Source: Streptosporangiales bacterium (GTDB lineage: Bacteria; Actinomycetota; Actinomycetes; Streptosporangiales; WHST01). Taken from it: a DNA stretch of 64,000 nt. The notes beneath the pieces are model-generated. The model searched no databases. It had not been told where the DNA came from and worked only from the letters and a program-made list of their open reading frames with translations. Position numbers and translations under genes: made by a program. The stretch lies in NCBI GenBank assembly GCA_009379955.1, contig WHST01000004.1, positions 1 through 64,000 on the forward strand, in the 5' to 3' direction. Of this stretch, positions 12,471 through 46,793 are shown piece after piece; position 1 is the stretch's first letter; each line of letters begins with the position of its first letter.

Positions 12471-12480
12471 CTCCCTCGGG

Positions 12481-14700: not shown

Positions 14701-14701
14701 A

Positions 14702-14719: not shown

Positions 14720-14741
14720 GGACGAAAGGCTATCAGCGCGG

Positions 14742-15758
14742 TCATCCGGGCCGCATGTCCGGGAACTGGACGTAGAGGAGCTGGTCGCCGCGGCGGAGCT
14801 CGCCGGCGGCGTTGGCCGGGATCGACTCCTCGCGCGAGCCGCGCACGACGGCGATGACGACCTCGGCGACATCGCGGACACCCCGCCCGATCTCGTCCTC
14901 GTTGATCGGCCGCTGGCGCAGGTCGAGGCCGGTGCCGTACGAGATGAGGTCCTCGGCGACCGCCGCGATCGTCGGCTTGCGTGCGGCGAGCCCGACGAGG
15001 CGTCCGGCCGCCTCCTGGGACGTGATGACCGAACGTGCGCCGCTCTGCTTGAGCAGCGCAACGTTCTCCTCCTCGCGGACGGACGCGGCGATGAACACCG
15101 TCTTGCTCTGCTGCCGGACGGTGAGGGTGATCATGACCGCGCTGTTGTCGTCGTGCACGGTGATGAGCACGGCCCGTGCGCGGTCGAGCTCGACCTGGTG
15201 GAGCGTCTCGGAGTGCTCGGCGTTGGCCTGGACCGCGGTGATGCCGAGTGCCTGGGCGGAGGCGACGCCTTCGGGCGTCGGGTCGATCGCGACGATCCGG
15301 CTCGGGTCGACGCCGTCGGCGATCAGCGTGCGTGCGGCCGCGCGACCCTTCGTGCCGAACCCGCAGATGATCGTGTGGTTGCGCACTTTCGCCCTCCAGC
15401 GAGCGACTCGGTACTGCATGCGGCTGCGTTCCGACAGCGCGCTGATCGTGGTGCCGACCAGCAGGATCAGGAACGCGAAGCGCAGTGGCGTGATGACGAG
15501 GATGGTGAGCAGGCGCGCCTGCGGGGTCACCGGCACGATGTCGCCGTACCCGGTGGTCGACAGGCTCACGGTCGCGTAGTAGATCGCGCTCAGGAACGTG
15601 ATCGGCGTGCCCGAGCTGTCCCGGTAGTCGTCCCTGTCGAAGTAGACGAGCAGTGCGGACACCAGGACGATCAGGACGGCGAGGGCGACCCGCCGGGCGA
15701 TCTCCACCAGCGGCGGACGTTCGCCGCGCAGCGGCAGACGGAGTTCGGACCGGGCCAT
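14742..15758 (-). CDS. Two-TM potassium channel with cytoplasmic RCK (TrkA-N) domain
   Basis: 338-aa ion channel. Helix 1 (about residues 20-42) and helix 2 (about 84-110) flank a pore loop with the K+ selectivity filter STTGYGDI. A Rossmann-type RCK/TrkA-N domain follows: NHTIICGFGTKGRAAARTL binds nucleotide, and AHSETLHQ and SARSVITSQEAAGRLVG follow. The C-terminal ~90 residues resemble a TrkA-C domain (LRRGDQLLYVQFPD). Architecture matches MthK/GsuK-like prokaryotic channels gated by ligands on the RCK ring. The ATG at 15758 was chosen over a TTG six bases upstream. It is probably expressed alone. Confidence 0.92.
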   Translation of the reverse strand: MARSELRLPLRGERPPLVEIARRVALAVLIVLVSALLVYFDRDDYRDSSGTPITFLSAIYYATVSLSTTGYGDIVPVTPQARLLTILVITPLRFAFLILLVGTTISALSERSRMQYRVARWRAKVRNHTIICGFGTKGRAAARTLIADGVDPSRIVAIDPTPEGVASAQALGITAVQANAEHSETLHQVELDRARAVLITVHDDNSAVMITLTVRQQSKTVFIAASVREEENVALLKQSGARSVITSQEAAGRLVGLAARKPTIAAVAEDLISYGTGLDLRQRPINEDEIGRGVRDVAEVVIAVVRGSREESIPANAAGELRRGDQLLYVQFPDMRPG

Positions 15759-15842
15759 GGGCAAAGGCTAGTGGTGCGCCCCCTTGCCTCCGGGGACGTG
15801 GTCGCCCGAGCCACCACTTCCTCGGACGTCACGCGAGTCAGC

Positions 15843-17474: not shown

Positions 17475-17541
17475 CGCAGGCTCCCTTGCCCAGACGGCGC
17501 TGCCCCTGATGATGCCGCACGCCGGGAGCGTTGTCAGTGCC

Positions 17542-18549
17542 TCACGACAGACGTTGCGCCTTGCTGAGCACCCGCTGGACGATCACCACCACGGCGAGGA
17601 ACGCGCCGCTCACGACCTGCTGGAACGACGAGTTGAGCGAGCCGACCTGGTTGATCAGGCTCTGGATCACGCCGAGGAGCAGCACGCCCGCCATGGTCCC
17701 GGTGAGGCCTCCCGCGCCGCCGGTCAGCAGGGTGCCGCCGATCACGACGGCCGCGATGACGTCGAGCTCCATGCCCACGCCGAGAATCGTCACCCCGGAC
17801 GAGAGCCGCGCCGCGTTGAGAGCGCCGGCGAGCCCGGCGAGCAGGCCGGACATGAGGTAGACGAGCACCTTCACCCTCGCGACCGGCACACCCATCAGCG
17901 CGGCCGCGTCCTCGCTGCCGCCGATGGCGTAGACGTTCTGCCCGAAGCCGGTGCGCTGGAGCAGCACGATGCCGAGCAGGCAGAGCACGACCGTGACATA
18001 GACCGGCACCGTGAGGCCGAACAGCGAGCCCTGGCCGAGTGCGGCGAAGGCGTCGCTCTCCACGAGGTACGTGTCGGCGCCCTCGCCGGAGAGCGCGAGC
18101 ATCAGTCCGCGCATGCCGAGCAGGCCGGCGAGCGTGACGATGAACGGTGCCATCGACGTTCGCGCGATGACGAGACCCTGGACGAGCCCGATCGTGCCGC
18201 ACACGGCGAGCGGTAGCAGCACCGCGACGACCACGCCGTACCGCGAGCCGTATGCCGCGAGCACGCCGCCGAGCACGAACGACGACCCGACCGACAGGTC
18301 GATGCCGCCGCTGACGATCACGAACGTCATGCCGATCGCGATGATGGCGAGGAACGACGACGAGACGAGGATGTTGGCGGCGTTCTGCGTCGTGGCGAAC
18401 GAGTCGAAGGCAACGGTGCCGATCAGCACGGTGAGTGCGAGCACCAGCAGGGCGCCGTGGTGCTGGAGCAGCTGGCCCAGTCGTTCGCGGCCGGCGCCCT
18501 CGCGGCCCCTACCTCCGGCTCGCTCGTCGAGCTCCAGCGCTGGACTCAT
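17542..18549 (-). CDS. Sugar ABC transporter permease (RbsC/YjfF type), second permease
   Basis: 335-aa membrane protein with about ten hydrophobic helices, of the branched BPD_transp_2 family used by ribose/galactose-type importers. GMTFVIVSGGIDLSVGS is the hallmark of this group, and VIGGTLLTGGAGGLTGTMAG near the C-terminus is the second conserved block. The ATG at 18549 overlaps the stop of the preceding permease (ATGA). It is the last gene of the GH2-SBP-ATPase-permease-permease operon. Two different permeases suggest a heterodimeric channel, as in YtfT-YjfF. Confidence 0.92.
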   Translation of the reverse strand: MSPALELDERAGGRGREGAGRERLGQLLQHHGALLVLALTVLIGTVAFDSFATTQNAANILVSSSFLAIIAIGMTFVIVSGGIDLSVGSSFVLGGVLAAYGSRYGVVVAVLLPLAVCGTIGLVQGLVIARTSMAPFIVTLAGLLGMRGLMLALSGEGADTYLVESDAFAALGQGSLFGLTVPVYVTVVLCLLGIVLLQRTGFGQNVYAIGGSEDAAALMGVPVARVKVLVYLMSGLLAGLAGALNAARLSSGVTILGVGMELDVIAAVVIGGTLLTGGAGGLTGTMAGVLLLGVIQSLINQVGSLNSSFQQVVSGAFLAVVVIVQRVLSKAQRLS

Positions 18550-29909: not shown

Positions 29910-30764
29910 CTACCAGGCATGGAATCCCCGGCCCGACTTCTTGCCCAGCTCGCCCCTGGCGACCATGTCGCGGAGCAGCTGGGGCGGCGTGAACCGTGGG
30001 CCGAGCGTACGGGTGAGGTGCTCGGCGACGGCGAGACGCACGTCGAGCCCGACGAGGTCGGTCAGCCGTAGCGGGCCGATGGGCCAGCGGTAGCCGAGTC
30101 GCATCGCGGTGTCGATGTCCTCGGCGGAGGCGACGCCGTCCTCCAACATCCGGATCGCCTCGAGCCCGACGGCGACGCCGAGTCGGCTGGTGGCGAAGCC
30201 GGGGCTGTCGCGCACCGTGACTGGCGTGAGGCCGAGTCGCTCGACCCGCGCCTGCGTACGGGCGACCACGGCGTCGTCGACGCGGTCGTGCCGGACCACC
30301 TCGACGAGCGCCGACGCCGGCACCGGGTTGAAGAAGTGCATGCCGACGAGGCGTTCCGGACGGTCGAGCGCGTCAGCGATCTCGGCAACGGGCAGCGCAC
30401 TGGTGTTCGTGGCGAGGTCGGCATCGGGCAGGGCCCGCTCGGCGGCGACGAGCATCCGTTGCTTGAGGCCGACGTCCTCGGGGACGGCCTCGACGACGAG
30501 GCGGGCGCGGTGGCCGAGGTCGTCGAGCGAGGTCGTGGTGCGCAGGTCGGCGACGAGGACGTTGGCGGTGACCCCGTCGGGGAGCTTGCCGAGCTCCTCC
30601 GCCTTGCGCACCGAAGCGGCGACGCGCTCGCGCGCCAGGTCGGCGGCGTCCGCGCCGGACTCCACGATCGTCACCGGGGAGGCGGCGGCGAGGAAGACGT
30701 GGGTGATCCCCGCGCCCATGGTGCCTCCACCGATGACCACCACATGCTCGTCGTGTCGTCTCAC
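29910..30764 (-). CDS. paaH: 3-Hydroxyacyl-CoA dehydrogenase (PaaH/Hbd type)
   Basis: 284-aa NAD-dependent 3-hydroxyacyl-CoA dehydrogenase. The Rossmann loop is VVIGGGTMGAGI (residues ~8-19). Active-site segments are ATNTSALPVAEIA and MHFFNPVPASALVEVV, whose histidine is the catalytic base, and PGFATSRLGVAVGLEAIRML begins the C-terminal helical domain. In the phenylacetate pathway it oxidises 3-hydroxyadipyl-CoA. The start is GTG 30764, overlapping the paaE stop as GTGA; upstream in-frame codons lie within paaE. Position between paaE and paaN supports PaaH, but other acyl-CoA substrates are possible. Confidence 0.9.
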   Translation of the reverse strand: MRRHDEHVVVIGGGTMGAGITHVFLAAASPVTIVESGADAADLARERVAASVRKAEELGKLPDGVTANVLVADLRTTTSLDDLGHRARLVVEAVPEDVGLKQRMLVAAERALPDADLATNTSALPVAEIADALDRPERLVGMHFFNPVPASALVEVVRHDRVDDAVVARTQARVERLGLTPVTVRDSPGFATSRLGVAVGLEAIRMLEDGVASAEDIDTAMRLGYRWPIGPLRLTDLVGLDVRLAVAEHLTRTLGPRFTPPQLLRDMVARGELGKKSGRGFHAW

Positions 30765-31858
30765 GTGTCGTACTCCAGTCGTACGGTCGGGGTCACGGGG
30801 TGGGACTGGCAGGTGAGCACGAACCCCTGCCGGAGCTCGTCGTCCTCGAGCGCGTAGTTCTGGTCCATCCGCACCTCGCCCTCGAGCAGCCGGGCGCGGC
30901 AGGTGCCGCAGACGCCGCCGCGGCACGCGTAAGGTGCGTCGCCGCGCTCTCTCAGCATCGCCTCCAGGACGGGCATGTCGTGCTCGCCGAGCGTGAACGT
31001 CGTGGCGCGGCCGGCGAGGACGGCGGTCACCGTGCTGCGGTCACCGGATACGCTCGCCGGCGCGGGTGCGGGCGGTGTGGGTACGGCGTCCGCGTGGAAC
31101 AGCTCGACGTGCACCCGCGTGGCCCCGCGGTCGCGCAGCAGCCCGCGCAGGTCGCGCACCATGGCGAACGGCCCGCAGCAGAACCACTCGTCGACCGACT
31201 CGGCGGGGCACAGCGCGTCGAGGAGGCGGCCGAACCGGTCCGGGTCGAGCCGGCCGGAGAACAGCTCGACCTGCTGCGGTTCCCGCGACAGCACGTGCAC
31301 GACCGCGAAGCGGTCGGGGTACCGGTTCTTCAGGTCGGACAGCTCCTCGACGAACATGACCGACCGGCTCGTCCGGTTGCCGTAGAAGAGTGTCACCGAG
31401 CTCGCCGGTTCGACCGCGAGCGCCGTGGCAGCGATCGACAGCAGCGGCGTGATACCGCTGCCCGCCGCGACGAGCCCGTAGTGCACGGCGCGGCCGGGAT
31501 CGAGCGCCGGCGTGAACCGTCCCGTCGGCGTCATCACCTCCAGGGTGTCGCCGGGTCGCAGCCGCTCGCCGACGTACGACGAGAACGCGCCGCCCGGCAG
31601 CCGCTTCACCCCGATGCGTAGTACGCCGGACCCGGCGGGCGTGCAGAGCGAGTAGCTGCGCCTCGTGTCGTCGCCCGCCGCGAGGCAGCGCACGTTGACG
31701 TGTTGGCCGGCCTCGTACGCGAACGCCTCAGCCAGCTCGCCGGGCACGTCCAGCGTCACGGCGTACGCGTCGTCGGTCAGCGGCTCGACGGCGGCGACCC
31801 GCAGCTCGTGGAACACCGGCGCGTGCGGCCTCACCTGGGCGGGCGTGGCGGTGGTCAT
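30761..31858 (-). CDS. paaE: PaaE, reductase of the phenylacetyl-CoA epoxidase
   Basis: 365-aa flavoprotein reductase that passes electrons from NADPH to the PaaABC(D) oxygenase. The FAD-binding domain has RRSYSLCTPAG, the NAD(P)-binding domain has YGLVAAGSGITPLLSI, and the C-terminal plant-type 2Fe-2S domain has CRGGVCGTCRARLLEG with the fourth Cys in LTCQS. Length and domain order match PaaE/PaaK. The ATG follows directly after the paaD stop (TAG-ATG), indicating tight coupling. Confidence 0.95.
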   Translation of the reverse strand: MTTATPAQVRPHAPVFHELRVAAVEPLTDDAYAVTLDVPGELAEAFAYEAGQHVNVRCLAAGDDTRRSYSLCTPAGSGVLRIGVKRLPGGAFSSYVGERLRPGDTLEVMTPTGRFTPALDPGRAVHYGLVAAGSGITPLLSIAATALAVEPASSVTLFYGNRTSRSVMFVEELSDLKNRYPDRFAVVHVLSREPQQVELFSGRLDPDRFGRLLDALCPAESVDEWFCCGPFAMVRDLRGLLRDRGATRVHVELFHADAVPTPPAPAPASVSGDRSTVTAVLAGRATTFTLGEHDMPVLEAMLRERGDAPYACRGGVCGTCRARLLEGEVRMDQNYALEDDELRQGFVLTCQSHPVTPTVRLEYDT

Positions 31859-32341
31859 CTACAGGGCCTTCAGCGCGTCGAACGGCTCCGCGCACGCGCG
31901 GCAGGCATGCAGCGCCTTGCACGCGGTGGACCCGAACCTGCTGGTCTCGCGGGTGTCGAGCGACCCGCAGCGGGGGCAGCGCACCGAGAGCGGCACGGTC
32001 ACCGGGGTGCCGGCGGTCGCGGGGCCTGGCGGCGCGACGCCGTACGCGCTGAGCTTGCGCCTGCCCTCGTCGGTCAGCCAGTCGGTGGTCCAGGCGGGGC
32101 TGAGCACGGTGCGCACCCGCACGTCGGTGTAGCCCGCGCCGTGCAGGGCACCCTCGATGTCGGCGCGGATCGCCTCCATGGCCGGGCAGCCGGAGTAGGT
32201 CGGGGTGATGACGACCTCGACGGCTCCGGCGGCGTCGACGGTGACGTCGCGGAGCACCCCGAGGTCGGCGATGGTCAGCACCGGGATCTCGGGATCGACG
32301 ACCTCGGCGGCGACGTCACGTGCCTTCGTCGCGGTCACCAT
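31859..32341 (-). CDS. paaD: PaaD, phenylacetyl-CoA epoxidase maturation subunit (MIP18 family)
   Basis: 160-aa DUF59/MIP18-type protein: VVDPEIPVLTIADLGVLRDV, a conserved cysteine in YSGCPAMEAI, then a C-terminal zinc-ribbon-like region with paired cysteines (CPRCGS and ACRAC). PaaD probably helps insert iron clusters into the epoxidase complex. The ATG at 32341 overlaps the paaC stop by 7 bp; the longer open frame upstream is only the shadow of paaC. Its position between paaC and paaE is standard. Confidence 0.95.
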   Translation of the reverse strand: MVTATKARDVAAEVVDPEIPVLTIADLGVLRDVTVDAAGAVEVVITPTYSGCPAMEAIRADIEGALHGAGYTDVRVRTVLSPAWTTDWLTDEGRRKLSAYGVAPPGPATAGTPVTVPLSVRCPRCGSLDTRETSRFGSTACKALHACRACAEPFDALKAL

Positions 32342-33132
32342 GTCGCCCCCGGGTGGGCGCGGTGCAGCGACTGCATCTCGGCGAGCAGGTGTCCGAGGTG
32401 CTCGGTGTGCAGGCCTCGGCGGCCGGCGCACCGTGCCGGCGGCATCTCGGGACGTTCGAGCGTCGCCTCGCGCAGCACCTCGCCGACGCCCGCGTCCCAC
32501 GCGGCCCGCAGCCCCGACACGTCGACGCCCACGCCGTCCGCGGCGAGGCGCGCCACCAGGGCGTCGGCCTCGAACATCTCGTCGACGTACGGCCAGACGT
32601 ACGCGAGCCCGGCCTGGAGCCGCTCGTGGCTCTCCGCGGTGCCGTCGCCGAGCCGCAGTGTCCACTGGGTCGCGTGGTCGCGGTGGTACGCGACCTCCTT
32701 CACCGCCTTGCCCGCGACACCCGCGAGCGTCGCGTCGACCGACCGCGCGAGCTCGCCGTAGAGCAGGTGCTGGTACACGGAGAACAACAGCTGCCTGGCG
32801 ATCGTCCGACCGAAGTCGCCGCGTGGCAGCTCCACGATCTGCAGGTTGCCGAACGCGCGGTCGTCGCGCAGGTACGCCAGCGCGTCCTCGTCGCGTTCCG
32901 CACCCTCGACCTCGCCCGCGTACGCCAACAGGGTGCGGGCCTGGCCCAGCAGGTCGAGCGCGATGTTGGCCAGCGCGACGTCCTCCTCGAGCTCGGGTGC
33001 CCGCGCCACCCACTCGGCCAACCGGTGCGAGAGCACCAGCGCGTCGTCGCCGAGCCGGAGCGCGTACGCCGCGACGTCCGGCATCTCCCCGGCAGGCGAC
33101 ACGCCGGTCTCGGCGAAGAACGGCGACTTCAT
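32335..33132 (-). CDS. paaC: PaaC, structural subunit of phenylacetyl-CoA epoxidase
   Basis: 265-aa ferritin-like helical protein. EDVALANIALDLLGQARTLL and EVAYHRDHATQWTLRLGDGT are PaaC signatures. PaaC pairs with the catalytic PaaA but lacks its full iron ligand set. The ATG at 33132 was chosen because GGAGG lies about six bases upstream. It follows paaB by 38 bp and overlaps paaD. One step of the aerobic hybrid phenylacetate pathway (epoxidation of the CoA-activated ring). Confidence 0.95.
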   Translation of the reverse strand: MKSPFFAETGVSPAGEMPDVAAYALRLGDDALVLSHRLAEWVARAPELEEDVALANIALDLLGQARTLLAYAGEVEGAERDEDALAYLRDDRAFGNLQIVELPRGDFGRTIARQLLFSVYQHLLYGELARSVDATLAGVAGKAVKEVAYHRDHATQWTLRLGDGTAESHERLQAGLAYVWPYVDEMFEADALVARLAADGVGVDVSGLRAAWDAGVGEVLREATLERPEMPPARCAGRRGLHTEHLGHLLAEMQSLHRAHPGATW

Positions 33133-33170
33133 AGTGCCTCCACGCGACCGCTTCGTCGCAGCTCCTTCGC

Positions 33171-33452
33171 TCACAGGTGCTCGACCCCTTCGGGCACCGT
33201 GTAGAAGGTCGGGTGACGGTAGACCTTGTCGTTCGCGGGGTCGAAGAACGGGTCCTTCTCGTCCGGCGACGAGGCGTGGATCGCGGCCGCCGGCACGACC
33301 CACACGCTCACGCCCTCGCTCCTGCGGGTGTAGACGTCGCGGGCGTTGCGCAGCGCCATCACCGCGTCGGGTGCCCGCAGGCTGCCGACGTGCTGGTGCG
33401 ACAACCCGCGCCGGCTGCGCACGAACACCTCCCAGAGCGGCCAGCCGGCCAT
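33171..33452 (-). CDS. paaB: PaaB, small subunit of phenylacetyl-CoA epoxidase
   Basis: 93-aa protein with the PaaB signature: WPLWEVFVRSRRGLSHQHVG, then DAVMALRNARDVYTRRSEGVSVWVVP and DPANDKVYRHPTFYTVPEG. PaaB is thought to bridge PaaAC heterodimers. The ATG at 33452 shares one base with the paaA stop (TGATG). It is often too short for simple gene finders but is clear here from family motifs and position. Confidence 0.95.
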   Translation of the reverse strand: MAGWPLWEVFVRSRRGLSHQHVGSLRAPDAVMALRNARDVYTRRSEGVSVWVVPAAAIHASSPDEKDPFFDPANDKVYRHPTFYTVPEGVEHL

Positions 33453-34387
33453 CACGCCACCGCCTCGACGGTGCGCCGCTTGTCCGCGTACGCCCGTGCC
33501 GCCTCGCGGACCCACGCGCCGTCCTCGTGTGCCGTGCGCCGCTGGGCGATCCGCTCCCTGTTGCAGGGGCCGTTGCCCTTGATCACCGCGATCAGCTCGC
33601 TGTAGTCGGGCTCGGTGAAGTCGTAGTGGCCGGTGTCGGCGTTCCAGGCGATGCCGTTGTCGGGCAGCGTCAGTCCGAGCACCTCGGCCTGCGGCACCGT
33701 CATGTCGACGAACCGTTGGCGCAGGTCGTCGTTGCCGAAGCGCTTGATCCGCCAGGCCATCGACTGCTCGGTGTGGGCGGAGTCGGCGTCGGGCGGGCCG
33801 AACATCATCAGCGACGGCCACCACCAGCGGTCGACGGCGTCCTGCGCCATCGCGTGCTGCGCAGGGGTGCCGTGGCCGAGCGTGTGCAGGATCTCGAACC
33901 CCTGCCGCTGGTGGAACGACTCCTCCTTGCAGATCCGCACCATCGCGCGGCCGTACGGCCCGTACGAGCAGCGACACAACGGCACCTGGTTGGTGATCGC
34001 GGCCCCGTCGACGAGCCAGCCGATCGCGCCGATGTCGGCCCAGGTGAGCGTGGGGTAGTTGAAGATGCTCGAGTACTTCTGCCGGCCGGACAGCAGCAGG
34101 TCCTGCAGGTCGTCGCGGTCGGCGCCCAGCGTCTCGGCGGCCGCGTACAGGTAGAGGCCGTGGCCGGCCTCGTCCTGGACCTTGGCGATGAGGATCGCCT
34201 TGCGGCGCAGTGACGGCGCGCGGGAGATCCAGTTGCCCTCTGGCTGCATGCCGATGATCTCGGAGTGGGCGTGCTGGGCGATCTGCCTGATCAGCGTCGC
34301 CCGGTACGCGTCGGGCATCCAGTCACGCGGCTCGACCCGCTCGTCGGCGGCCACCCGCGCGTCGAACTCGACCTGCCGCTCCGTCAC
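33452..34387 (-). CDS. paaA: PaaA, catalytic subunit of phenylacetyl-CoA epoxidase
   Basis: 311-aa di-iron oxygenase subunit that epoxidises the ring of phenylacetyl-CoA. [58 protein letters not shown] and [12 protein letters not shown] carry the iron ligands (Glu and E-x-x-H pairs). The GTG at 34387 ([20 protein letters not shown]) has GAGGAG upstream and fits family N-termini; an ATG at 34426 exists, but it is 8 bp from the repressor palindrome and has no ribosome site. First gene of the paa operon, divergent from paaR. Confidence 0.95.
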
Positions 34388-34433
34388 GAACCCGCTCCTC
34401 ACCCGTCGGAAGGTGGTCTCCACCATAGCGCCC

Positions 34434-34461: not shown

Positions 34462-35049
34462 ATGGCCATCGCAGCGCGCGAGCGCTACACCCCGGAATCG
34501 CTCCTCGCGGTCGCCGTCGAGGTGTTCAACGAGCGCGGCTACGACGGCACGAGCATGGAACACCTCGCCCAGGCGGCCGGCATCACGAAGTCGTCGATCT
34601 ACCACCACGTGCGCGGCAAGGAGGACATCCTGCGGCTCGCGCTGGAGCGGGCCACGGGGGTGCTCTTCGGGGCGCTCGACGAGCCGGGCGCGACCACCGG
34701 ACGTGCGGTCGACCGGCTCGAGCACGTCCTGCGGCGTGCCGCTGAGGTGCTGATCGAGGAGCGGCCGTTCGTCACCCTGCTGCTGCGGGCGCGCGGCAAC
34801 ACCGACACCGAGCGGTGGGCGCTGGAACGCCGCCGCGACCTCGACAGCCGGGTCGCCGACCTCGTCGCCGAGGCCGCCGCCGACGGCGACCTGCGCGACG
34901 ACGTCGACCCGCGGCTCGCCACCCGCCTGCTCTTCGGCATGGTCAACTCGATCAGCGAGTGGTACCGCGAGGGCCAGGGCACGGCCCAGCCCGACGCGAT
35001 CGGAGCCGCCGTCGCCACCCTCGCCTTCGACGGACTGCGCAGCCGCTGA
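34462..35049 (+). CDS. paaR: TetR-family repressor, PaaR
   Basis: 195-aa TetR regulator. The N-terminal HTH is clear ([20 protein letters not shown], then [20 protein letters not shown] and GKEDIL). The C-terminal ligand domain has a tryptophan near the end (ISEWYREG). A TATGGT motif six bases before the ATG could serve as a -10 and give a leaderless transcript. It is divergent from paaABCDE, with a perfect palindrome in between, and is most likely the phenylacetyl-CoA-responsive repressor of the operon and of itself. Confidence 0.92.
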
Positions 35050-36642: not shown

Positions 36643-37842
36643 ATGGCATCTCGAGGGCGGTACGGCGACGGTCCCGGGGACCCGCGGCGACGCGACCCGG
36701 AGCCGACGAGGATGATGCCCGGCCAGCAGCGCCGAGCCTCCCAGCCGCACGCCGACCCGGACGACGGCGCCTACTACTCGCGTACCTACCATTCCTCCCG
36801 GCTGCGGCGCCCGGGAGACCGTCGTGGCGAGCGCCAAGGCGGCGGCCGCCCTCCGAAGCGCCCGCGCGACCGCAGGCCCCGCCGCGGGCGCACCGCTCGC
36901 ATCGTCATCGGCGTGCTGCTCCTGGTCGTGGTGATCGTCGCCCTCCCGTACGCGATCGTCCTCGGCGTGACGTACGGCAAGCTGAACCGCATCGACGTGC
37001 TCCAGGACTACGCCGGGCGGCCGGCGAAGACGCCCGGCCAGGACTGGCTGCTCGTCGGTTCGGACAGCCGCGAGGGCCTCAGCAAGAAGGAACAGCGCGA
37101 GCTGCACACCGGCCACACCGCCGGTCGCCGCGCCGACACGATGATGCTGCTCCACATCCCCCGGGGCGGCGGCAAGCCGACGCTGGTGAGCTTCCCGCGC
37201 GACTCGTACGTCCCGATCCCGGGCCGTGGCCGGATGAAGCTCAACGCCGCCTACGCCATCGGCGGGCCGAAACTCGCCGTGCGCACGATCGAGCAGGTCA
37301 CCGAGATCAGGATCGACCACTACATGGAGGTCGGCTTCGCTGGCTTCGCGGGCGCCGTCGACGCTGCCGGCGGGGTCGACATCTGCGTCAAGCGGACGAT
37401 GAAGGACCCGAAGCAGCACATCACGTTCAAGAAGGGCTGCCAGACCATGGACGGCAAGACCGGACTCGCCTACGTCCGGTCGCGCTACGACGACCCCCGC
37501 GGTGACTTCGGCCGGGTCGAGCGGCAACGCGAGTTCCTCGGTGCCCTCTTCTCGGAGGCGGCGTCACCGGCCACGCTGCTCAACCCGGTCCGGGCCGGCA
37601 GGATCGCGTTCGCGAGCGCCGAGGGCCTCACCGTCGACAAGAGCGACGGCCTCATCGACCTCTTCTCGCTCGCCAGGGCGATGCGCAAGGCCTCCAGTGG
37701 TGGCGTCAAGACCCTGACCGTGCCCGTCGCCGGCACGGAGTCCGTGGCCGGGCAGGGCAGCGTGGTGCGCTGGGACCGACCGAAGGCGCGCAAGCTCTTC
37801 TCCCAGCTCCGCAACGACCAGCGCGTCACGGTCAAGGGCTGA
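36643..37842 (+). CDS. LytR-CpsA-Psr (LCP) family cell-envelope protein
   Basis: 399-aa type II membrane protein that probably transfers glycopolymers to peptidoglycan. A disordered, arginine/proline-rich cytoplasmic tail (residues 1-85) precedes one membrane helix (~86-110). The LCP domain follows: DWLLVGSDSREGLS, RRADTMMLLHIP, VSFPRDSYVPIPG, MKLNAAYAIGG and the late LAYVRSRYDD with RVERQREFL. The catalytic arginines and aspartates are present. GTG starts at 36634 or 36637 are alternatives to the ATG. It ends 11 bp inside the 3' end of the convergent AlkD gene. Confidence 0.92.
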   Translation: MASRGRYGDGPGDPRRRDPEPTRMMPGQQRRASQPHADPDDGAYYSRTYHSSRLRRPGDRRGERQGGGRPPKRPRDRRPRRGRTARIVIGVLLLVVVIVALPYAIVLGVTYGKLNRIDVLQDYAGRPAKTPGQDWLLVGSDSREGLSKKEQRELHTGHTAGRRADTMMLLHIPRGGGKPTLVSFPRDSYVPIPGRGRMKLNAAYAIGGPKLAVRTIEQVTEIRIDHYMEVGFAGFAGAVDAAGGVDICVKRTMKDPKQHITFKKGCQTMDGKTGLAYVRSRYDDPRGDFGRVERQREFLGALFSEAASPATLLNPVRAGRIAFASAEGLTVDKSDGLIDLFSLARAMRKASSGGVKTLTVPVAGTESVAGQGSVVRWDRPKARKLFSQLRNDQRVTVKG

Positions 37843-38910: not shown

Positions 38911-39249
38911 ATGGGCATGATGTCGGTTGAGGCAAGCGGCGTCGGTATCGGTGGCCAGAAGACGTTCGTCACCGCAGCGGACGTCCAGCAGCAGGTCAAG
39001 GGAATCGTCGCGACCTACGAGGCCACCGGTGGGAACTGGTCGGGCAACTCGCACGCGGCGTTCTCGCGGGCGATGTCCGCACTCGTCGAGCACGGCGGGC
39101 AGCTCGGGGTCAACCACGGCAGGATCTCCGAGGGCCTCGGGATGACGCAGAAGCACACCAACACGGCGGACGACACGAGCCAGTCCGAGATGTCGAGCGT
39201 GGAGTCGGGCGCCAGCAGCATCAACACCCAGATCAACATCGGCACCTGA
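38911..39249 (+). CDS. WXG100-family protein (EsxA/EsxB type), T7SS substrate 1
   Basis: 112-aa helical hairpin protein. The central turn W-x-G is seen in GGNWSGNSHAAF, flanked by helices TAADVQQQVKGIVATYEATG and AFSRAMSALVEHGGQLGVNH. There is no signal peptide. Such proteins are secreted as dimers through EccC-type ATPases, the C-terminal tail acting as the export signal. The ATG at 38911 was chosen because AGGAGG lies nine bases upstream; earlier ATGs exist. It is followed 22 bp later by a second WXG100 gene, probably its dimer partner. Confidence 0.85.
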   Translation: MGMMSVEASGVGIGGQKTFVTAADVQQQVKGIVATYEATGGNWSGNSHAAFSRAMSALVEHGGQLGVNHGRISEGLGMTQKHTNTADDTSQSEMSSVESGASSINTQINIGT

Positions 39250-39271
39250 CGAACGGGGACACGACGCCATC

Positions 39272-39565
39272 ATGGACATGATCAAGTTCAACTCGGCCAC
39301 CATCTCGACCGCCGAGGAGGAGATGTTCCGCGCGCTGAACAAGCTGAGCGAGACCTGCTCCAACCAGCAGGGCAACGACGGTCAGATGTTCGGCCTCTGG
39401 CAGGGCGACCAGGGTGTGCCCGCGGCTCTGCACACCACCAAGCAGCAGAACTCGGCGTTCGAAGCGGTGAACAAGTCCGTCGGCGACTGCAAGAACGCCC
39501 TCGGCACCACCGGCACCAACGTCAACACGATGTTCAGCCAGGTCAACGGCCTCTGGGGCGCCTAG
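39272..39565 (+). CDS. WXG100-family protein (EsxA/EsxB type), T7SS substrate 2
   Basis: 97-aa helical protein with a W-x-G turn in FGLWQGDQGVP between two helices (AEEEMFRALNKLSETCSNQQ, and AFEAVNKSVGDC). Two cysteines, one in each helix (TCS and DCK), could cross-link the hairpin; this is unusual among EsxA-like proteins. It starts 22 bp after the first WXG100 gene and likely forms a heterodimer with it. It is not preceded by a signal peptide, consistent with T7SS export. Confidence 0.85.
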   Translation: MDMIKFNSATISTAEEEMFRALNKLSETCSNQQGNDGQMFGLWQGDQGVPAALHTTKQQNSAFEAVNKSVGDCKNALGTTGTNVNTMFSQVNGLWGA

Positions 39566-39581
39566 TACTACCCTCGGGCCG

Positions 39582-40064
39582 ATGACGCCGAACGAGAACC
39601 AACCGCACGACCCCACCGGGCAACAGCCGGTGGGGTCGTCGGCGTATGTGGGAGGCCGCCCGTCCCGCGGCACCAGGCCCACCCAGCAGAGCGCGGACGC
39701 GGCCGCGGTCGAGGGCGAGGCCCTGCGCCGCCGGCAGCTGCGGGCCGCCCTGTGTCACGGCACCGACAGGTCGTGGCGGGACAAGAACCGCGCCTGGCCG
39801 GCCTTCGTCGTCGGCGTGCTGGTCGCACTGGTGATCTGCGCGGGACTCGGGGTGCAGGGCGCCTTCCACAAGCAGCAGCGCCTCGACCGCGAGGAGAAGC
39901 AGAAGCAGGAGCAGAAGCAACAGGTGCGCACGGTCACCGCGTCACCCGGCGCCACGTCCACCGGTGGGAAGAAGAACGGCAGGTCCATCCAGCCGACGGC
40001 GACCGGTACCCGCGCGACGAAGACCGACGGCAAGGCAACGAGGCCGGCCGAACCGAACGGCTGA
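39582..40064 (+). CDS. Single-pass membrane protein of the T7SS locus, unknown function
   Basis: 160-aa protein with a proline/glycine-rich cytoplasmic N-terminus, one hydrophobic helix (about residues 72-93, WPAFVVGVLVALVICAGLGV) and a lysine/glutamate-rich, then threonine-rich C-terminal tail. The topology resembles small accessory proteins such as EccB-like anchors, but no EccB domain is visible. It is third in the WXG100 transcription unit (16 bp gap) and converges with eccC (7 bp between stops). The role in secretion is inferred only from position. Confidence 0.65.
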   Translation: MTPNENQPHDPTGQQPVGSSAYVGGRPSRGTRPTQQSADAAAVEGEALRRRQLRAALCHGTDRSWRDKNRAWPAFVVGVLVALVICAGLGVQGAFHKQQRLDREEKQKQEQKQQVRTVTASPGATSTGGKKNGRSIQPTATGTRATKTDGKATRPAEPNG

Positions 40065-40071
40065 CCGCCTC

Positions 40072-43000
40072 CTACTCCGCCGGCAGCCGCTCCCCGGCCT
40101 TGGCCACCTGCACCTGGACCGGCGGATGCGTGCGGCGCGCCCAGACCGCCCGCCCGACGGGCAGCTTCTGCGGCCGGACGCCGCAGACGAGCGGCCCCTC
40201 CATCCGGTCGCCGCTGAACATCAGGCCGGGTGTGCTCAGGTCGGTCATCCGCTGCAGGAACGGGTCGTAGATCGCCCGGCCCGCGCCGCCCATCCGGCGG
40301 GAGACCAGCAGGTGGAATCCGATGTCACGGCCCTGGGCCATGTACTCGGAGATGTGCAGGAGCGGGTTGTTGCCCGACGTGGCGACGAGGTCGTAGTCGT
40401 CGACGACCATGAACACGTCGAGGCCCTTCCACCAGCTGCGCTCGCGGAGCTGCTGCGAGGTGAGGTCGGCGGGCGGCAGGCGCTTGGCCAGGCTGCCGGC
40501 GAGCTCGCGGCAGACCTTCTCGGTCGCCGGTCCCGACGTGCAGTAGGCGACCTGGAACTCCTTCGGCACCACGTCGAGCAGCGAGCGGCGGTAGTCGACC
40601 ATCACGAAGCCGATGTCGGTCTTCTGCTTGCCGACGAGCAGCTGCCGGATCAGCACCTCGAGTGCGTTGGTCTTACCCATCTCGGTGTCGCCGAAGACGA
40701 GCAGGTGCGGGTCGGCGCCCTGCAGGTCGACGAATGCGGGGCCGAGCGCCTTGTCCTCGATGCCGACCGCGACCGCGGGCGGGTAGGCGTCGCCCGGTGG
40801 TAGGTCCTTCAGCGGCACCTCGTGGGGCAGGACGCGGATGGGGGGTGCGCCGGTCTCGGGGTAGCGGCGGGTGACGAGCTGCACCGCCGCGCGCTGGCCG
40901 TCGGCCAGGTCGGCCTCGTCGGCGACGCCGTCAACCCGCGGCAGCGCACCTTGGAACAGCAGCTTGTCCTGCATGACGCCCTTGCCGGGGGTCTCCACGG
41001 TGACGTTCTTGGTCAGCTCGCGGTCGATGGTCGCGTCGTAGGCCTCGTTCATCCGCATCTCGACGCGTCCGGAGATCGCGTTCTGGACGTTCGGCCGGAC
41101 GTTGTGCAGGGTGATGGCCGTGATCACGAGGTGCACGCCGTACGCGAGTCCGCGGCCGGCGATCTCGGCGATGTCCTGGTCGATCTCCTCGAGCTCCTCC
41201 TTGAACGCGCCCCAGCCGTCGATGACGAACACGACGTCGCCGAGGAGGTCGTCGTCGAACCGGTTGCCCTGGGCGCGCCAGCGGCGCCAGCTGACGGCGG
41301 AGTCGAGGCCGGCCTTGCGGAACGCCTCCTCGCGGCGGTCGATGAGACCGATCATCTCGTTGATCATCCGGCGCACACGGGGGATGTCGATGCGAGCCGC
41401 GACGGTGCCCACGTGGGGGAGGTCCTCGAGCGCGCTGTATCCGCCGCCGCCGAAGTCGGCGACGTAGAACGCGATCCCGTCGGGTGGGTGCAGGAAGGAC
41501 GCGCTCAGGATCATCGTGCGCACCAGCATCGACTTGCCGGACTGGGGCGCACCGACGATGAGCATGTGCCCCTGGCCGCCCGCGAAGTCGATGACGAACG
41601 GCCGCTGTCGCTGCGCGCGCGGTTCGTCGATGAGGCCGAGGACGGCCCCGGCCACGAACGGGCGGGGTGCGCCCTGCTTCAGCAGCGGCCCGAGGAGGGG
41701 GTCGAGGGTGAGCTTGGCCGGCATCGGGTCGAGCCAGACCTTGTGCACCGACAGCCGGCTGCTCGCCAGCCGGTCGACGATGACGTCGAGAACCGTGGGG
41801 TCGCTGACGTTGCCGGTCTCGTCCTTCTCCTGCGGCGCGGCCTGCTTGCCGAGCGCCTCGAGTCGGCGCTGGGCGAGGAGGCCGATGCCGTTGACCGAGG
41901 TGTACGGGACCAGCGGCGGCGAGATCGCCGTGGCGGCGGTGAGGTCGGTGACCGGCTCGTACGTGCCGGAGACGTACGCGGCCTTGAACCGCTCGTAGAC
42001 GGTGGTGTCGACCTGCAGGTAGCCGGAGCCGGGCTCCGGCGGCAGGTGGTACGCGTCGGGGGTGCCGATGGCCTCGCGGCTCTCGGACTCGGAGAAGGTG
42101 CGGAGCCCGATGCGGTACGAGAGGTGGCTCTCCAGGCCGCGGATCTTGCCGGTCTCGAGACGCTGGGTGGCCAGCAGGAGGTTCATGCCGATGCTGCGGC
42201 CGATGCGGCCGATCGCGACGAACAGCTCGGCGAAGTCGGGCTTGGCGGTCAGCAGCTCGCTGAACTCGTCGATGATGACGAGCAGGTAGGGCAGCGGCGG
42301 CATGTCCGGGTGCTGCTCGCGGGCGCGGTGGTACGTCGCGACGTTGGGCAGGTTGCCGGCCTGCTTGAGCAGCTCCTGCCGGCGCATCATCTCGCCGTAG
42401 AGCGCGTCACGCATACGGTCGACGAGCGCGAGGTCGTCCTGCAGGTTGGTGATCATGCCCGCGAGGTGCGGCAGGTTCGACGTGCCCGCGAAGGTCGCGC
42501 CGCCCTTGTAGTCGACGAGCACCATCGAGAGCAGCTCGGGGTGATGCTTGATGGCGAGCGAGCTCACCAGGGTGCGGAGGAACTCGCTCTTGCCCGAGCC
42601 GGTAGCGCCGACGACGAGTCCGTGCGGCCCCATGCCGCCGGCGGCCGACTCCTTGAGGTCGAGGACGAGGGGGCGTCCCGTGCCGGTGAGTCCGATGGAC
42701 ACCCGCAGCAGGTCGCGGGGCTGCAGGTGGGTCCAGACGGAGAACGGGTCGATCGTGCCGACGTCGGTGACGCCGAGCACGTCGGGCAGCTTGACCTCGC
42801 TGCCGAGGACCGACTCGGGCGCGTCGTCGGCGGCGAGCCGGAGCGGGGACAGCCGCCTGGCGAGTGCGGTGGCCAGGCCGATGCTCGGCTCGTCCGGCGC
42901 GAAGACGGTGGTGGAGCCGTCGCGACGCTGGAGGAAGCCTGGGCCGTGCGAGGGGACCACGGCCCGCAGATCGACGTGGCCCGGCTCGGCGCGCTGGTCG

Positions 43001-44061
43001 TTGACGAGCTGGACGACGTGGATGCCGAGCTCGTGCAGCGGGACGGTGGCGTCGGGTGTCTGGAGGCCGTTGTGACTCGGCACGTGCTCGCCGTCGACGA
43101 CGAGCAGGAGGTGCGTGCGCACGCTGCGCTTGCCGCGGCTGAGCCGGTGCTCTTCCACGCGTCGTTCGATGTCCGCCTCGAGCATGACGTTCATGTCCTG
43201 CACGGTGGCCGCGACGAGCCGGCCGGGCAGCAGGCCGTCGTCGATCTGCGGGCTCTGCACGTGCGGCAGCCACTTGGCGAAGTTCCACGTGGCCTCGGTG
43301 CGCTGCGAGCGGACGATGGCGATGCGGAGGTTGTCGGGCGCGTGGAACGCCGCGGCCTGGCAGAGCAGCGTGCGCAGCAGCGCGCGTCCGCGGTTCCACT
43401 CGCCGATCACGCTGATGACACCGAGGTCGGCGACGTCGAGCGTGATCGCCTGATGCTCGAGCGACGTGCGGCGTTCGACCAACTGCCGTGCCGCGGCCAG
43501 CGACACGGGCTCGAGGACCTGCATCGGGTTGTCGTCGTCGGCGAACTTCACCCGCAGCGCGAGCGGCACGTTGCCGGACCCGGCGCGGGTGGAGAGGAAG
43601 TCCTCGTCGTCGAGCCGGCGTTCCCAGCGCCGTGACTCGTCGCCGACGAGGTCGACGAGGCGCTCGGGCTGCGGCTGGGTCCAGTCACCGCGCTCGCGCT
43701 GTGCCGACACCGACGACCTGAGCCGCTGGCGTACGCCGTCGATGTAGTCGAGGTACTGCTCGCGCTCCATGCGCAGCTTCTTCTTCGGGCCCGAGCGCTG
43801 TGCCCAGAACATGAGGCCGCCCATGGTGATGGCCGCCATGAAGACGAGCAGTCCGATCGCGACGAACAGCGGCCGGTGCAGGTTGGTGAAGACCACCAGC
43901 AGGGAGCCCGTCCCGCCCATGACGGGCATGCCGATCATGGCGAGCTGCTGCCCCGGCGGTGTCGGGTTCTCGACCTTCGGCGGTGAGATCAGCTCGATCT
44001 GGTCGGCCTCGACGTGGGGGAGCGGCATGCGCGCCGGCCGATGGATGACGCTGACACCCAT
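40072..44061 (-). CDS. eccC: EccC, T7SS FtsK/SpoIIIE-type ATPase (EccCa and EccCb fused)
   Basis: 1329-aa membrane ATPase that binds and drives substrates through the T7SS. Hydrophobic segments lie near residues 36-88. Three FtsK-like domains follow with Walker A motifs GATGSGKSE (~485), GAPQSGKSM (~837) and GDTEMGKTN (~1124). Walker B is complete only in domain 1 (LLVIIDEF); domains 2 and 3 have FVIDGW and MVVDDYD, as expected for substrate-regulated modules. The length matches fused EccC of non-mycobacterial actinobacteria. The ATG follows AAGGACGA. Divergent from eccD. Confidence 0.95.
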   Translation of the reverse strand: MGVSVIHRPARMPLPHVEADQIELISPPKVENPTPPGQQLAMIGMPVMGGTGSLLVVFTNLHRPLFVAIGLLVFMAAITMGGLMFWAQRSGPKKKLRMEREQYLDYIDGVRQRLRSSVSAQRERGDWTQPQPERLVDLVGDESRRWERRLDDEDFLSTRAGSGNVPLALRVKFADDDNPMQVLEPVSLAAARQLVERRTSLEHQAITLDVADLGVISVIGEWNRGRALLRTLLCQAAAFHAPDNLRIAIVRSQRTEATWNFAKWLPHVQSPQIDDGLLPGRLVAATVQDMNVMLEADIERRVEEHRLSRGKRSVRTHLLLVVDGEHVPSHNGLQTPDATVPLHELGIHVVQLVNDQRAEPGHVDLRAVVPSHGPGFLQRRDGSTTVFAPDEPSIGLATALARRLSPLRLAADDAPESVLGSEVKLPDVLGVTDVGTIDPFSVWTHLQPRDLLRVSIGLTGTGRPLVLDLKESAAGGMGPHGLVVGATGSGKSEFLRTLVSSLAIKHHPELLSMVLVDYKGGATFAGTSNLPHLAGMITNLQDDLALVDRMRDALYGEMMRRQELLKQAGNLPNVATYHRAREQHPDMPPLPYLLVIIDEFSELLTAKPDFAELFVAIGRIGRSIGMNLLLATQRLETGKIRGLESHLSYRIGLRTFSESESREAIGTPDAYHLPPEPGSGYLQVDTTVYERFKAAYVSGTYEPVTDLTAATAISPPLVPYTSVNGIGLLAQRRLEALGKQAAPQEKDETGNVSDPTVLDVIVDRLASSRLSVHKVWLDPMPAKLTLDPLLGPLLKQGAPRPFVAGAVLGLIDEPRAQRQRPFVIDFAGGQGHMLIVGAPQSGKSMLVRTMILSASFLHPPDGIAFYVADFGGGGYSALEDLPHVGTVAARIDIPRVRRMINEMIGLIDRREEAFRKAGLDSAVSWRRWRAQGNRFDDDLLGDVVFVIDGWGAFKEELEEIDQDIAEIAGRGLAYGVHLVITAITLHNVRPNVQNAISGRVEMRMNEAYDATIDRELTKNVTVETPGKGVMQDKLLFQGALPRVDGVADEADLADGQRAAVQLVTRRYPETGAPPIRVLPHEVPLKDLPPGDAYPPAVAVGIEDKALGPAFVDLQGADPHLLVFGDTEMGKTNALEVLIRQLLVGKQKTDIGFVMVDYRRSLLDVVPKEFQVAYCTSGPATEKVCRELAGSLAKRLPPADLTSQQLRERSWWKGLDVFMVVDDYDLVATSGNNPLLHISEYMAQGRDIGFHLLVSRRMGGAGRAIYDPFLQRMTDLSTPGLMFSGDRMEGPLVCGVRPQKLPVGRAVWARRTHPPVQVQVAKAGERLPAE

Positions 44062-44166
44062 GCGTCGTCCTTACCAGTAGGGTCCGTTCCGAAAGCGACG
44101 CTCTAGAGTATCCACGGGCGGGACGTCCCGCGGGGCGGCGCGGCAGAGGAGGGGACGGTCCGGCGG

Positions 44167-45501
44167 ATGGCTCTCGGCTTCAGCACGGTCAGCGTCGTCA
44201 CGGCCGAACGCCGTGTCGACCTGGCACTCCCGAGCGGAGTGCCCGTGGGCGAATGGTTCCCCGAGCTCCTTCGCCTGTGCGACGCGCGAAAACAGGGACA
44301 GGGCGCCGACTGGGTGCTGGGTCCCGTAGGCGGACCGACGATCGGGTTCGACACCACCCTCGAGGCGTCCGGCATCAGCGACGGCCAGGTGCTGCAGCTG
44401 CGGCCGGCCGAGAGCGACGGCATCGTCGCGTACGTCGACGACTTCGTCGACACGGTCGCCGACCGGGTGGACGACAAGACCGATCGCTGGACCAAGAACA
44501 CGTCGGCGTCGTTCACCACGCTCGTTGCATCGGCCGGGCTGCTGCTGATGCTGTACACCACCTTCAGCCGTGGCGGCGCGGGCGTGCTCTCGTTGTTCTT
44601 CGACCTCGTCGTGTCCGTCGCCCTCGCCCTCGCCGCCGCGATGTGGGCGCGACGCGAGCACGTCTTCGGTGCCGGCGTGCTCGCCGTCACCGCGCTGGTG
44701 TGGTGGACCGCCACCGGTGTCCTGCTCGGTGGCTATCTCGGCGGAGACATGTTCGGTGTCGCCCTGGGTGCCGTCGGGTTCGCGATCGGCGGCGGTGTCC
44801 TCCGGGTCTCGGCCGAGCGCCTCGCCGGTCCCGCGGCGTTCGCCTGGTCGGTCAGCGCGCTGCTCGCCGTCTCCGCCGTCGCCGTGCTGCTCGGCGTCCC
44901 GCTCGTCGCCGTGCTCTGCGCGCTCGTCGTGCTGTGCGTGCTCGTCCTCGGCATCCTGCCGCTGACGGCGCTCGGCGCCGGCGGGCTCGCCGCGATGGAC
45001 TACCGGATCAGGGCCGGGCAACGGCTCGCCAGCTCGGCGATCGAGCGCGCGGTGTGGCGCGCGTCGGGGATCCTCGGCTGGACGCTGACGGGCGTCGGGC
45101 TCGTCGCGACCGGCGTCGCCGGCTACGTCGCCCTCAACGGCGACACCTGGCCGCGGGTGCTGGCCGGGCTCGCGGGCGTGGCGCTGCTGCTGCGGTCGCG
45201 GGCGTACACCCGGCGGGCGCACGCCGTCCCGGTACGCCTCGCGGGCTCCGCCGTCGTCGCCGCGATGTTCGCGCGCCTGGTGCTCGACCGCGAGCCGGGC
45301 GAGGTGCTCCTCGTGGTCCTGCTCACCGCCGCGCTCATCGGGCTGTCCCTGCTCAGCGTGGTTTCGGTCAACGACGTGTTGTCCGCCCGCCTGCGGCTGC
45401 TCGGTAACTACGCTGAGATAGCCATCGTCATACTGTTGGTGCCGGTTCTCATGCAGATCTTCGGCCTGTTCGCCTGGATCAAGGATCTCGTCGGCACCTA
45501 G
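44167..45501 (+). CDS. eccD: EccD, T7SS integral membrane channel component
   Basis: 444-aa protein. The N-terminal ~80 residues have the ubiquitin-like YukD fold of EccD (VSVVTAERRVDLALPSGVPV, then GFDTTLEASGISDGQVLQLR). Ten or eleven hydrophobic helices follow from about residue 118 to the C-terminus. In mycobacteria EccD forms the membrane pore dimer. GAGGAGGGG lies about a dozen bases upstream of the ATG. It is divergent from eccC by 105 bp, and a ParA-like gene follows 26 bp after its stop. Confidence 0.9.
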   Translation: MALGFSTVSVVTAERRVDLALPSGVPVGEWFPELLRLCDARKQGQGADWVLGPVGGPTIGFDTTLEASGISDGQVLQLRPAESDGIVAYVDDFVDTVADRVDDKTDRWTKNTSASFTTLVASAGLLLMLYTTFSRGGAGVLSLFFDLVVSVALALAAAMWARREHVFGAGVLAVTALVWWTATGVLLGGYLGGDMFGVALGAVGFAIGGGVLRVSAERLAGPAAFAWSVSALLAVSAVAVLLGVPLVAVLCALVVLCVLVLGILPLTALGAGGLAAMDYRIRAGQRLASSAIERAVWRASGILGWTLTGVGLVATGVAGYVALNGDTWPRVLAGLAGVALLLRSRAYTRRAHAVPVRLAGSAVVAAMFARLVLDREPGEVLLVVLLTAALIGLSLLSVVSVNDVLSARLRLLGNYAEIAIVILLVPVLMQIFGLFAWIKDLVGT

Positions 45502-45527
45502 AAGAGATAGGGACGGGGGGAAGCATC

Positions 45528-46793
45528 GTGGAGCAGAGCGGACCGGACGAGTCCGGTGCCGCGCCCGGTGCTGCCCAGGTGTCTCCCGACGTCGCCGAGG
45601 AGCTGCGGCGGATGGGCCTCGATCCGGCGGCGATGGGGGTGCCCACGGGACCCCCATCGCCGCAGGCTTCCGCCCAGCGGCCACCACCCGGTCAGCGGCA
45701 GCCGCCGCCCGGTGGCCGGCCGCCACCGGGCCGGCAGGTCCATCCGCACAACCAGAGCCCGGGCGGAGGTCAGCCCCCGCGCGCGCCGGGACAGGTCGGC
45801 CCGGGCGTCAACTCGCAGAAGTTCCCCGAGCAGCAGGGCAGCTCCCACACCCAGGTCCCGCAGCCGAGCAGCTGGGCCACCACGTCGGCCACGGGCGGTG
45901 CCGGCGGACCGGCCTCGGTCGCCGGCGCGATGCCGCAGTCCGTGCGCCGAGGCGGCCGCACCGGCCTGCGCGGACTCGGGAACGTCAACAGCGCGGGGCG
46001 CGCGATGGCCCAGGCCGCCGTCATCGAACGCGCCTCCGCCCGGCTGCGCGGCGCCCGCCGCGTGGCGTTCCTCAGCTTCAAGGGCGGCGTCGGCAAGACG
46101 ACGGTCACGGCCCTCGCCGGACTGGCGCTGAGCAGCGTGCGTCGCGGCGGGGTGGCCGCGCTCGACGCCGACCCGGACCGCGGCACGCTGGTCCGCCGGC
46201 TCGACTCGGTGCAGCCGCCGTCGATCCGCGACTTCCTGTGGCGCGTGTACCAGAGCCCGCAGTCTGATCCGCGCCTGCTCGCCCACGCGACGCCCAGTGG
46301 GTTGCTCGTCCTCGACTCGGCACGGTCGCCGATCCTCGTCGACGCCCCCACACCCAAGGAGCTGTGGTGGGCGGTACGCACGCTCGAACGCACGTGCCCC
46401 GTCATCCTGCTCGACTGCGGCACCGCGCTCACCCACCCCGTCACCGCGACCATGCTGAAGTCGGTCGACGCCGTGGTCGTGGTGACGACGCCCTCCGACG
46501 ACGCGGTCGCCGCATGCTTCTCGACGCTGGGCTGGCTCGAACGCAACGGCTACGAGCAGCTGGCGAAGGAGGCCGCCGTTGCCATCACCGACGTCCGCAA
46601 GTCGCGGTTCGACCGGCGCCTCCACGCCGACGTCCGGCGGGAGCTCGGTCAGCGCGTGCAGACGGTGCTCGGGTTCGGCTTCGACGCCGGCCTCGTCCGT
46701 GGCGGCGTCATCGAGCTCGACCGGCTGTCGGTCACGACCCGGGAGGCCGCGCTCGAGGCGGCCGCCTGGGTCGTCAGCGGCCACGCCCGCTGA
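45528..46793 (+). CDS. ParA/MinD-like ATPase with proline-rich N-terminus, T7SS-associated (EspI-like)
   Basis: 421-aa protein. Residues 1-150 are disordered, with proline-rich runs (QRPPPGQRQPPPGGRPPPG). The C-terminal part is a deviant Walker ATPase: SFKGGVGKTTVTALAGLAL (~185), DADPDRGTLVRRLD and VILLDCGTALT. Proteins of this type, such as EspI, are found in many ESX loci, but their job is poorly defined; they may regulate or organise the secretion complex. The GTG at 45528 follows GGGGGGAAG. It is followed by a perfect terminator hairpin, ending the eccD operon. Confidence 0.8.
   Translation: MEQSGPDESGAAPGAAQVSPDVAEELRRMGLDPAAMGVPTGPPSPQASAQRPPPGQRQPPPGGRPPPGRQVHPHNQSPGGGQPPRAPGQVGPGVNSQKFPEQQGSSHTQVPQPSSWATTSATGGAGGPASVAGAMPQSVRRGGRTGLRGLGNVNSAGRAMAQAAVIERASARLRGARRVAFLSFKGGVGKTTVTALAGLALSSVRRGGVAALDADPDRGTLVRRLDSVQPPSIRDFLWRVYQSPQSDPRLLAHATPSGLLVLDSARSPILVDAPTPKELWWAVRTLERTCPVILLDCGTALTHPVTATMLKSVDAVVVVTTPSDDAVAACFSTLGWLERNGYEQLAKEAAVAITDVRKSRFDRRLHADVRRELGQRVQTVLGFGFDAGLVRGGVIELDRLSVTTREAALEAAAWVVSGHAR

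Follow-up and report, generated by a model that had tools for sequence, protein, structure and literature searches.

A putative minimal type VII secretion locus with a truncated EccB in a Streptosporangiales bacterium

In the ESX-5 type VII secretion system (T7SS), the N-terminal helix of EccB links adjacent EccD barrels, the EccB transmembrane helices form a basket around the EccC transmembrane bundles, and the EccB periplasmic domains form a dome that is capped by MycP (PMC8131196); EccB is needed for assembly of the full 2-MDa complex (PMC10597459). Among the published types T7SSa–T7SSj, the only one besides T7SSa (ESX) reported from Actinomycetota is T7SSd, from Olsenella and Bifidobacterium (Garrett et al. 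2024, PMC11217815). Here we describe a locus in a stretch of 64,000 nucleotides (the window; bases 1-64000 of contig C4, GenBank WHST01000004.1) from the draft assembly of a Streptosporangiales bacterium (6.61 Mb in 225 contigs, 97.4% complete), which encodes EccC, EccD, two WXG100-type proteins (WXG1 and WXG2), a small membrane protein and a ParA/MinD-like ATPase (Table 1). As judged from homology and gene content, it is probably a minimal T7SS that keeps the EccB membrane basket and lacks the periplasmic EccB–MycP chamber.

EccC and EccD of this locus lie above the curated cut-offs (509 and 347 bits for TIGR03924 and TIGR03925, and 95 bits for TIGR03920), EccC far above, as expected of an EccC/EssC-type membrane ATPase, and all six open reading frames (ORFs) and their P-loop motifs are intact. 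WXG1, WXG2 and the small gene follow one another on the plus strand, 22 bp and 16 bp apart, the 3' end of eccC is 7 bp from the end of the small gene on the opposite strand, and eccD and the ParA-like gene are divergent from eccC. A first-pass annotation, made from the letters of the window and its ORF list, had placed EccC, EccD, two WXG100 proteins and a ParA-like ATPase at 38911-46793, and ORF listing and profile scans confirm both content and coordinates; the orientation of eccC had to be corrected, this gene being on the minus strand against the others. Of the small lysine-rich membrane protein listed there, the membrane protein is present, and the lysine-rich tail is not its conserved part. 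Conservation of gene order, a check proposed in the same annotation, was found in two congeneric genomes (G001 and G002; in G002 the WXG genes reach the contig end), and EccC identity among the three species of the genus is 72–75%.

The two WXG proteins are divergent members of their family. WXG1 matches Pfam WXG100 below the cut-off and has a WxG motif, and the Pfam scan of WXG2 returned no match at all; WXG2 carries WQG at the hinge, aligns with the WXG100 partners of related loci, and has an AlphaFold2 model of low confidence (mean predicted local distance difference test score, pLDDT, 61) in which helices 8–43 and 50–95 are joined by a turn. Together, these features represent the WXG100 helical hairpin of a T7SS in the broad sense.

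Residues about 45–97 of the small protein match the N-terminal cytoplasmic helix and the transmembrane helix of EccB, while the periplasmic domain of EccB (about 400 residues) is missing. In hhalign, comparison with 30 diverse EccB N-termini gave a probability of 94% (E = 1.3e-7), and a hidden Markov model (HMM) of the same 30 N-termini recognized small proteins down to E = 1.1e-6 and the window protein at 5.5e-4 (search size 60,000 sequences). When this HMM was run against 901 locus proteins, 381 of them with transmembrane helices, true EccB came top and the small proteins next, and the first unrelated protein appeared at E = 0.3. Pfam EccB positions 16–67 match a small protein from the Streptomyces-like genomes (an inferred label for group f20/g41) in register (E = 0.06), and in genome G106 the small-protein profile matches the very start of a true EccB (E = 1.5e-5 at C1:340069; Pfam EccB at C1:340090). 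The small proteins of the two lineages described below, types I and II, are homologous (hhalign E = 6e-10; alignment A1), and the core of type I reads LRRRQLRAALLYGSSRYWRRR...VWPAVIGGLIL.ALICGGI. AlphaFold2 predicts consecutive helices at 35–69 and 71–119, with pLDDT 85–96 in the transmembrane part. A profile search of the PDB with the small protein gave chance-like matches only and no EccB, a search for homologues on plasmids found none, and a match of the profile in genome G187 (E = 3.7e-4) was treated as chance. These comparisons support the small protein as a homologue of the EccB N-terminus without the periplasmic domain, hereafter mini-EccB; the window protein has a single transmembrane helix, matches the EccB N-terminus only and lies near an EccB-free EccC, the three features by which we define this proposed family.

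The first-pass annotation had seen no EccB, EccE or MycP and had suggested that the small protein replaces EccB. Genome-wide profile searches bear out the absence. We could not find a match to EccB (PF05108) anywhere in the source genome or in the two congeneric genomes, one of which is rated 100% complete, and since the same search finds EccB in 38 of the 61 genomes of the relatives set, the zero in the source genome is informative. No match to EccE (TIGR03923) was found in the source genome, and no mycosin (MycP) match over the cut-off, the sub-threshold subtilases all being on contigs other than that of the locus. EccE is also absent in some ESX-4 systems. In a sample of 198 genomes across the class, 127 EccC loci scored over the cut-off; within 40 kb, EccB was found in 96, the small protein in 20, neither in 11 and both in none. 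All but one of the 21 small-protein genes were near an EccC, and the remaining one stands at the edge of a contig. The small protein is encoded together with the WXG pair, with EccD or with both. The Fisher value for this exclusion, 8e-16, ignores shared ancestry, and the EccC tree needs only one switch, so that the count is descriptive. Within the same 40 kb, the 20 small-protein loci contained neither EccE nor any mycosin listed at 228 bits or more; in sampled EccB loci, a mycosin was present in 34 of 42 and EccE in 18 of 42. Replacement of EccB by the small protein is thus supported by mutual exclusion, gene position and homology to the EccB N-terminus, and the homology makes it a truncated EccB, not an unrelated substitute.

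It is unlikely, in our estimate, that the small protein is an unrelated accessory (a substrate chaperone or an envelope tether), with EccB simply absent and the likeness due to convergent composition of transmembrane helices. Such an origin would fit the weak single-sequence scores, the 16% reached in a first hhalign comparison with a narrow set of ten similar EccBs, and the 15% of one decoy transmembrane family, the highest decoy value. However, the decoys are far lower than the small protein once EccB diversity is added, the likeness covers the cytoplasmic helix (RRR-L-AL--G) besides the transmembrane helix, in register with EccB residues about 5–60, and the small gene is found in EccB-free loci only. 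Decay is a poorer explanation: the loss of the EccB body, EccE and MycP and the lack of a toxin or large substrate nearby might suggest a partial T7SS remnant that no longer secretes, but the six ORFs and their P-loops are intact, three species of the genus share the order at the EccC identity given above, and many genera have the same reduced set, which together make it improbable. Slightly less probable still is a role in DNA transport, conjugation or cell division; in the profile scan EccC falls into the FtsK/SpoIIIE superfamily, and it has a ParA-like partner, but the WXG pair, the ubiquitin-like domain of EccD and the WXG-linked toxins in sister loci indicate protein export. Least credible of all is a supply of EccB and MycP functions in trans from another locus, for although contig C111 of the source genome carries a second EccC/EccD cluster, and Nocardiopsis and Streptomyces-like genomes hold canonical clusters beside the reduced ones, the C111 cluster has no EccB or MycP and carries its own mini-EccB, and the source genome and its two congeners have no EccB match.

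The C111 cluster has its own EccD, DUF6177, ParA, WXG proteins, TNT-domain genes and small membrane protein; as a candidate for a second full T7SS cluster it was rejected, being likewise EccB-free. Neither such a cluster nor an EccB, EccE or MycP adjoining the window locus, findings that would have spoken against the first-pass interpretation, was found. At C111 (L008) there are two TNT-domain genes and a duplicated, nearly identical WXG pair (15378-16034 and 17005-17676).

A survey of EccD in the 61 genomes of the relatives set separated two classes. The high-scoring class (about 200–270 bits) is accompanied by EccB in most of the same genomes, often adjoining. The low-scoring class (about 75–143 bits) comprises two lineages, as seen from the neighbourhoods of 40 of its loci (gene calls from a simple codon model), and the source genome has one locus of each. 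In type I, which includes the window locus and those of Nocardiopsis, Thermobifida and others, EccC is divergent from EccD, a triplet of WXG112, WXG97 and the small protein stands beside EccC or elsewhere in the region, and a Ser/Thr kinase and an EspA-like TPR_23 protein with a 108-amino-acid (aa) partner are often present. In type II, which includes the C111 cluster and Streptomyces-like genomes of one large genus, the order is WXG111, WXG100, small protein, EccD and ParA, with EccC and DUF6177 close by, and several Streptomyces-like genomes have the small protein, EccD, ParA, EccC and DUF6177 in one row. A scan of named genomes with the type I small-protein alignment found the type I triplet in Nocardiopsis, Thermobifida, Allosalinactinospora, Glycomyces and a Stackebrandtia metagenome-assembled genome, and in Actinoplanes cyaneus the WXG proteins, EccC, EccD, ParA and the small protein occur together. 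The ParA-like gene recurs in most type II loci, in some type I loci and in Actinoplanes.

Compared with T7SSa, and with ESX-4-like systems in particular, the window locus shares an EccC with fused a and b halves, an EccD with ubiquitin-like and transmembrane domains, paired WXG100 proteins, and a small protein homologous to the EccB N-terminus. It differs in having no full-length EccB with its periplasmic domain, no MycP, no EccE and no YxxxD/E export motif in its core WXG proteins, and EccC and EccD of mini-EccB systems form separate lineages. Like T7SSd, it is a reduced T7SS of Actinomycetota without EccB and MycP; however, T7SSd has FHA domains on its ATPase, the kinase TsdD, TsdH and TsdI and no ubiquitin-like protein, whereas the window locus has a YukD domain on EccD, no FHA domain in the Pfam scan of EccC and no kinase gene within the cluster. 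T7SSc resembles it in an ATPase that lacks FHA domains and is nearer EccC than EssC, but T7SSc is confined to Bacillota, has separate YukD-like, kinase, phosphatase, vWA and EspG-like proteins, and has neither EccD nor mini-EccB. The ParA-like ATPase shares its domain plan, the only level at which the two were compared, with EspI of ESX-1, which is ParA-like with a Pro-rich N-terminus; in the present systems, a ParA-like gene recurs across the two lineages. Because the features of T7SSa and T7SSd are thus incomplete, we call the locus a new T7SS variant with two lineages; by its gene content, it is one that fits none of the published types T7SSa–T7SSj, and a widespread one. In the literature searched, which left most subscription journals uncovered, we could not find any description of such an EccB-free T7SS in Actinomycetes. 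Its recognition would add to the catalogue T7SSa–T7SSj a variant that occurs in Nocardiopsis, Thermobifida, Actinoplanes, Glycomyces and Streptomyces-like genomes.

In the EccC tree, the mini-EccB systems are on one side of a branch with support 100 when two long rows and some near-copies are removed, and with support 84 when these are kept. When the tree is rooted, the two mini-EccB lineages fall outside the EccB clade, the root itself being unresolved. We offer only tentatively, and rather doubt, the idea that mini-EccB systems are separate, possibly older T7SS subtypes and not reduced ESX, the basket anchor having come first and the EccB body and MycP having been added later in the ESX lineage. 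In genome G214, a 71-aa protein resembling the EccB N-terminus is encoded right after an eccD-like gene (L130:15510-15725, plus strand); its lineage is nested within the EccB clade, which suggests a separate, later truncation of EccB.

In the minimal T7SS that we favour, EccC would be motor and gate, EccD a membrane raft bearing the ubiquitin-like domain, and mini-EccB would supply only the N-terminal cytoplasmic helix and the transmembrane helix of EccB, so that the basket is kept and the three proteins may form the pore. The WXG proteins would be obligate partners, exported themselves or targeting other substrates, and substrates would leave the EccC pore straight into the cell wall. A role in positioning or regulating the complex is probable for the ParA-like ATPase. 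Secretion by the locus, the assembly of mini-EccB with EccC and EccD, and the role of ParA are what we infer from the sequences. Without the periplasmic domain of EccB there would be no dome and no seat for MycP, which would account for the combined absence of the EccB body and MycP, and of EccE too. A natural T7SS that keeps the EccB anchor alone offers a test of whether the EccB–MycP chamber itself conducts export or is a device added in diderm mycobacteria; the prediction is that a single-membrane actinobacterium needs no more than EccC, EccD and the EccB N-terminus to build and gate the pore.

Several observations weigh against a minimal T7SS of this design. The window protein's own match is modest (21.5 bits). 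The YxxxD/E export motif of T7SSa substrates is absent from WXG1 and WXG2 and from all 58 of the 58 core WXG proteins examined from sister loci of both lineages, so substrate recognition must differ from that of ESX. The only evident candidate substrates of the window locus are the WXG pair, with no obvious large substrate or toxin alongside, and the EspA-like TPR_23 partner of many type I loci was not found in the source genome by a search that had no positive control. The exclusion count is uncorrected for shared ancestry, and the EccC tree, which needs as few as one switch, is rooted with one distant Enterococcus EssC and has an unresolved base, at which the EccB clade and both lineages of mini-EccB systems meet.

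Table 1. Coordinates of the locus and of related features (window positions unless a locus is named)
Feature	Position	Strand	Basis
WXG100-type protein 1 (WXG1), 112 aa, motif WSG	38911..39249	+	ORF; Pfam WXG100 E 4e-4, below cut-off
WXG100-type protein 2 (WXG2), 97 aa, motif WQG	39272..39565	+	ORF; alignment with partner WXG97 proteins; AlphaFold2 model
Mini-EccB, single-helix membrane protein, 160 aa	39582..40064	+	Family alignment A1; EccB-N-terminus HMM; hhalign; AlphaFold2
EccC, single-chain FtsK/SpoIIIE ATPase, 1329 aa	40072..44061	-	TIGR03924 788 bits; TIGR03925 699 bits
Divergent eccC/eccD intergenic region, 105 bp, presumed promoter region	44062..44166	.	Gene coordinates
EccD, 444 aa, N-terminal YukD-type ubiquitin-like domain and multi-transmembrane domain	44167..45501	+	TIGR03920 127.5 bits; Pfam YukD E 9e-15; EccD E 5e-21
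ParA/MinD-like ATPase, 421 aa, Pro-rich N-terminus, KGGVGKTT motif	45528..46793	+	Pfam CbiA E 1.4e-6, over cut-off
Mini-EccB–TNT fusion	L076:10520-11506	-	Equivalents L068, L073-L075, L077, L079-L081, L087, L089-L091, L093, L094
TNT-domain genes and duplicated WXG pair of C111 (L008)	12176-15019, 10279-10962, 15378-17676	-	Second EccB-free cluster of the source genome

Fusions of the mini-EccB anchor to a periplasmic part occur in many type II loci, and this part matches the Pfam family TNT (tuberculosis necrotizing toxin; E = 2e-19 in L076). Several positions that are conserved in the toxin-type TNT copy differ in the membrane-anchored copies, which suggests that the anchored part is a pseudo-enzyme domain, perhaps reused as a part of the machine. 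In type II loci, DUF6177 is often encoded close to EccC (for example L008:3807-5251, minus strand, and L122:13645-15075, plus strand) and may be a further component of these systems; in the literature searched, no mention of it was found. In type I loci of Nocardiopsis, the protein with the EspA-like TPR_23 domain is about 850 aa long, and with its 108-aa partner (L060:3490-6301, minus strand, and equivalents) it is likely to form a substrate pair.

A mobilizable linear plasmid of Streptomyces carries EccC, two WXG100 genes and an EsaB/YukD-type protein (L208:5864-14249), with no EccB, mini-EccB or EccB N-terminus within 18 kb, and is possibly the site of yet another T7SS variant. Upstream of the locus in the window, a LytR-CpsA-Psr family glycopolymer transferase is encoded at 36712-37842 on the plus strand (Pfam E = 3e-48). 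Genes resembling a phenylacetyl-CoA oxygenase (paaABCDE) cluster, read from the letters alone, occupy 30761-34426 on the minus strand, and a TetR-type regulator, read in the same way, lies divergent from them at 34462-35049.

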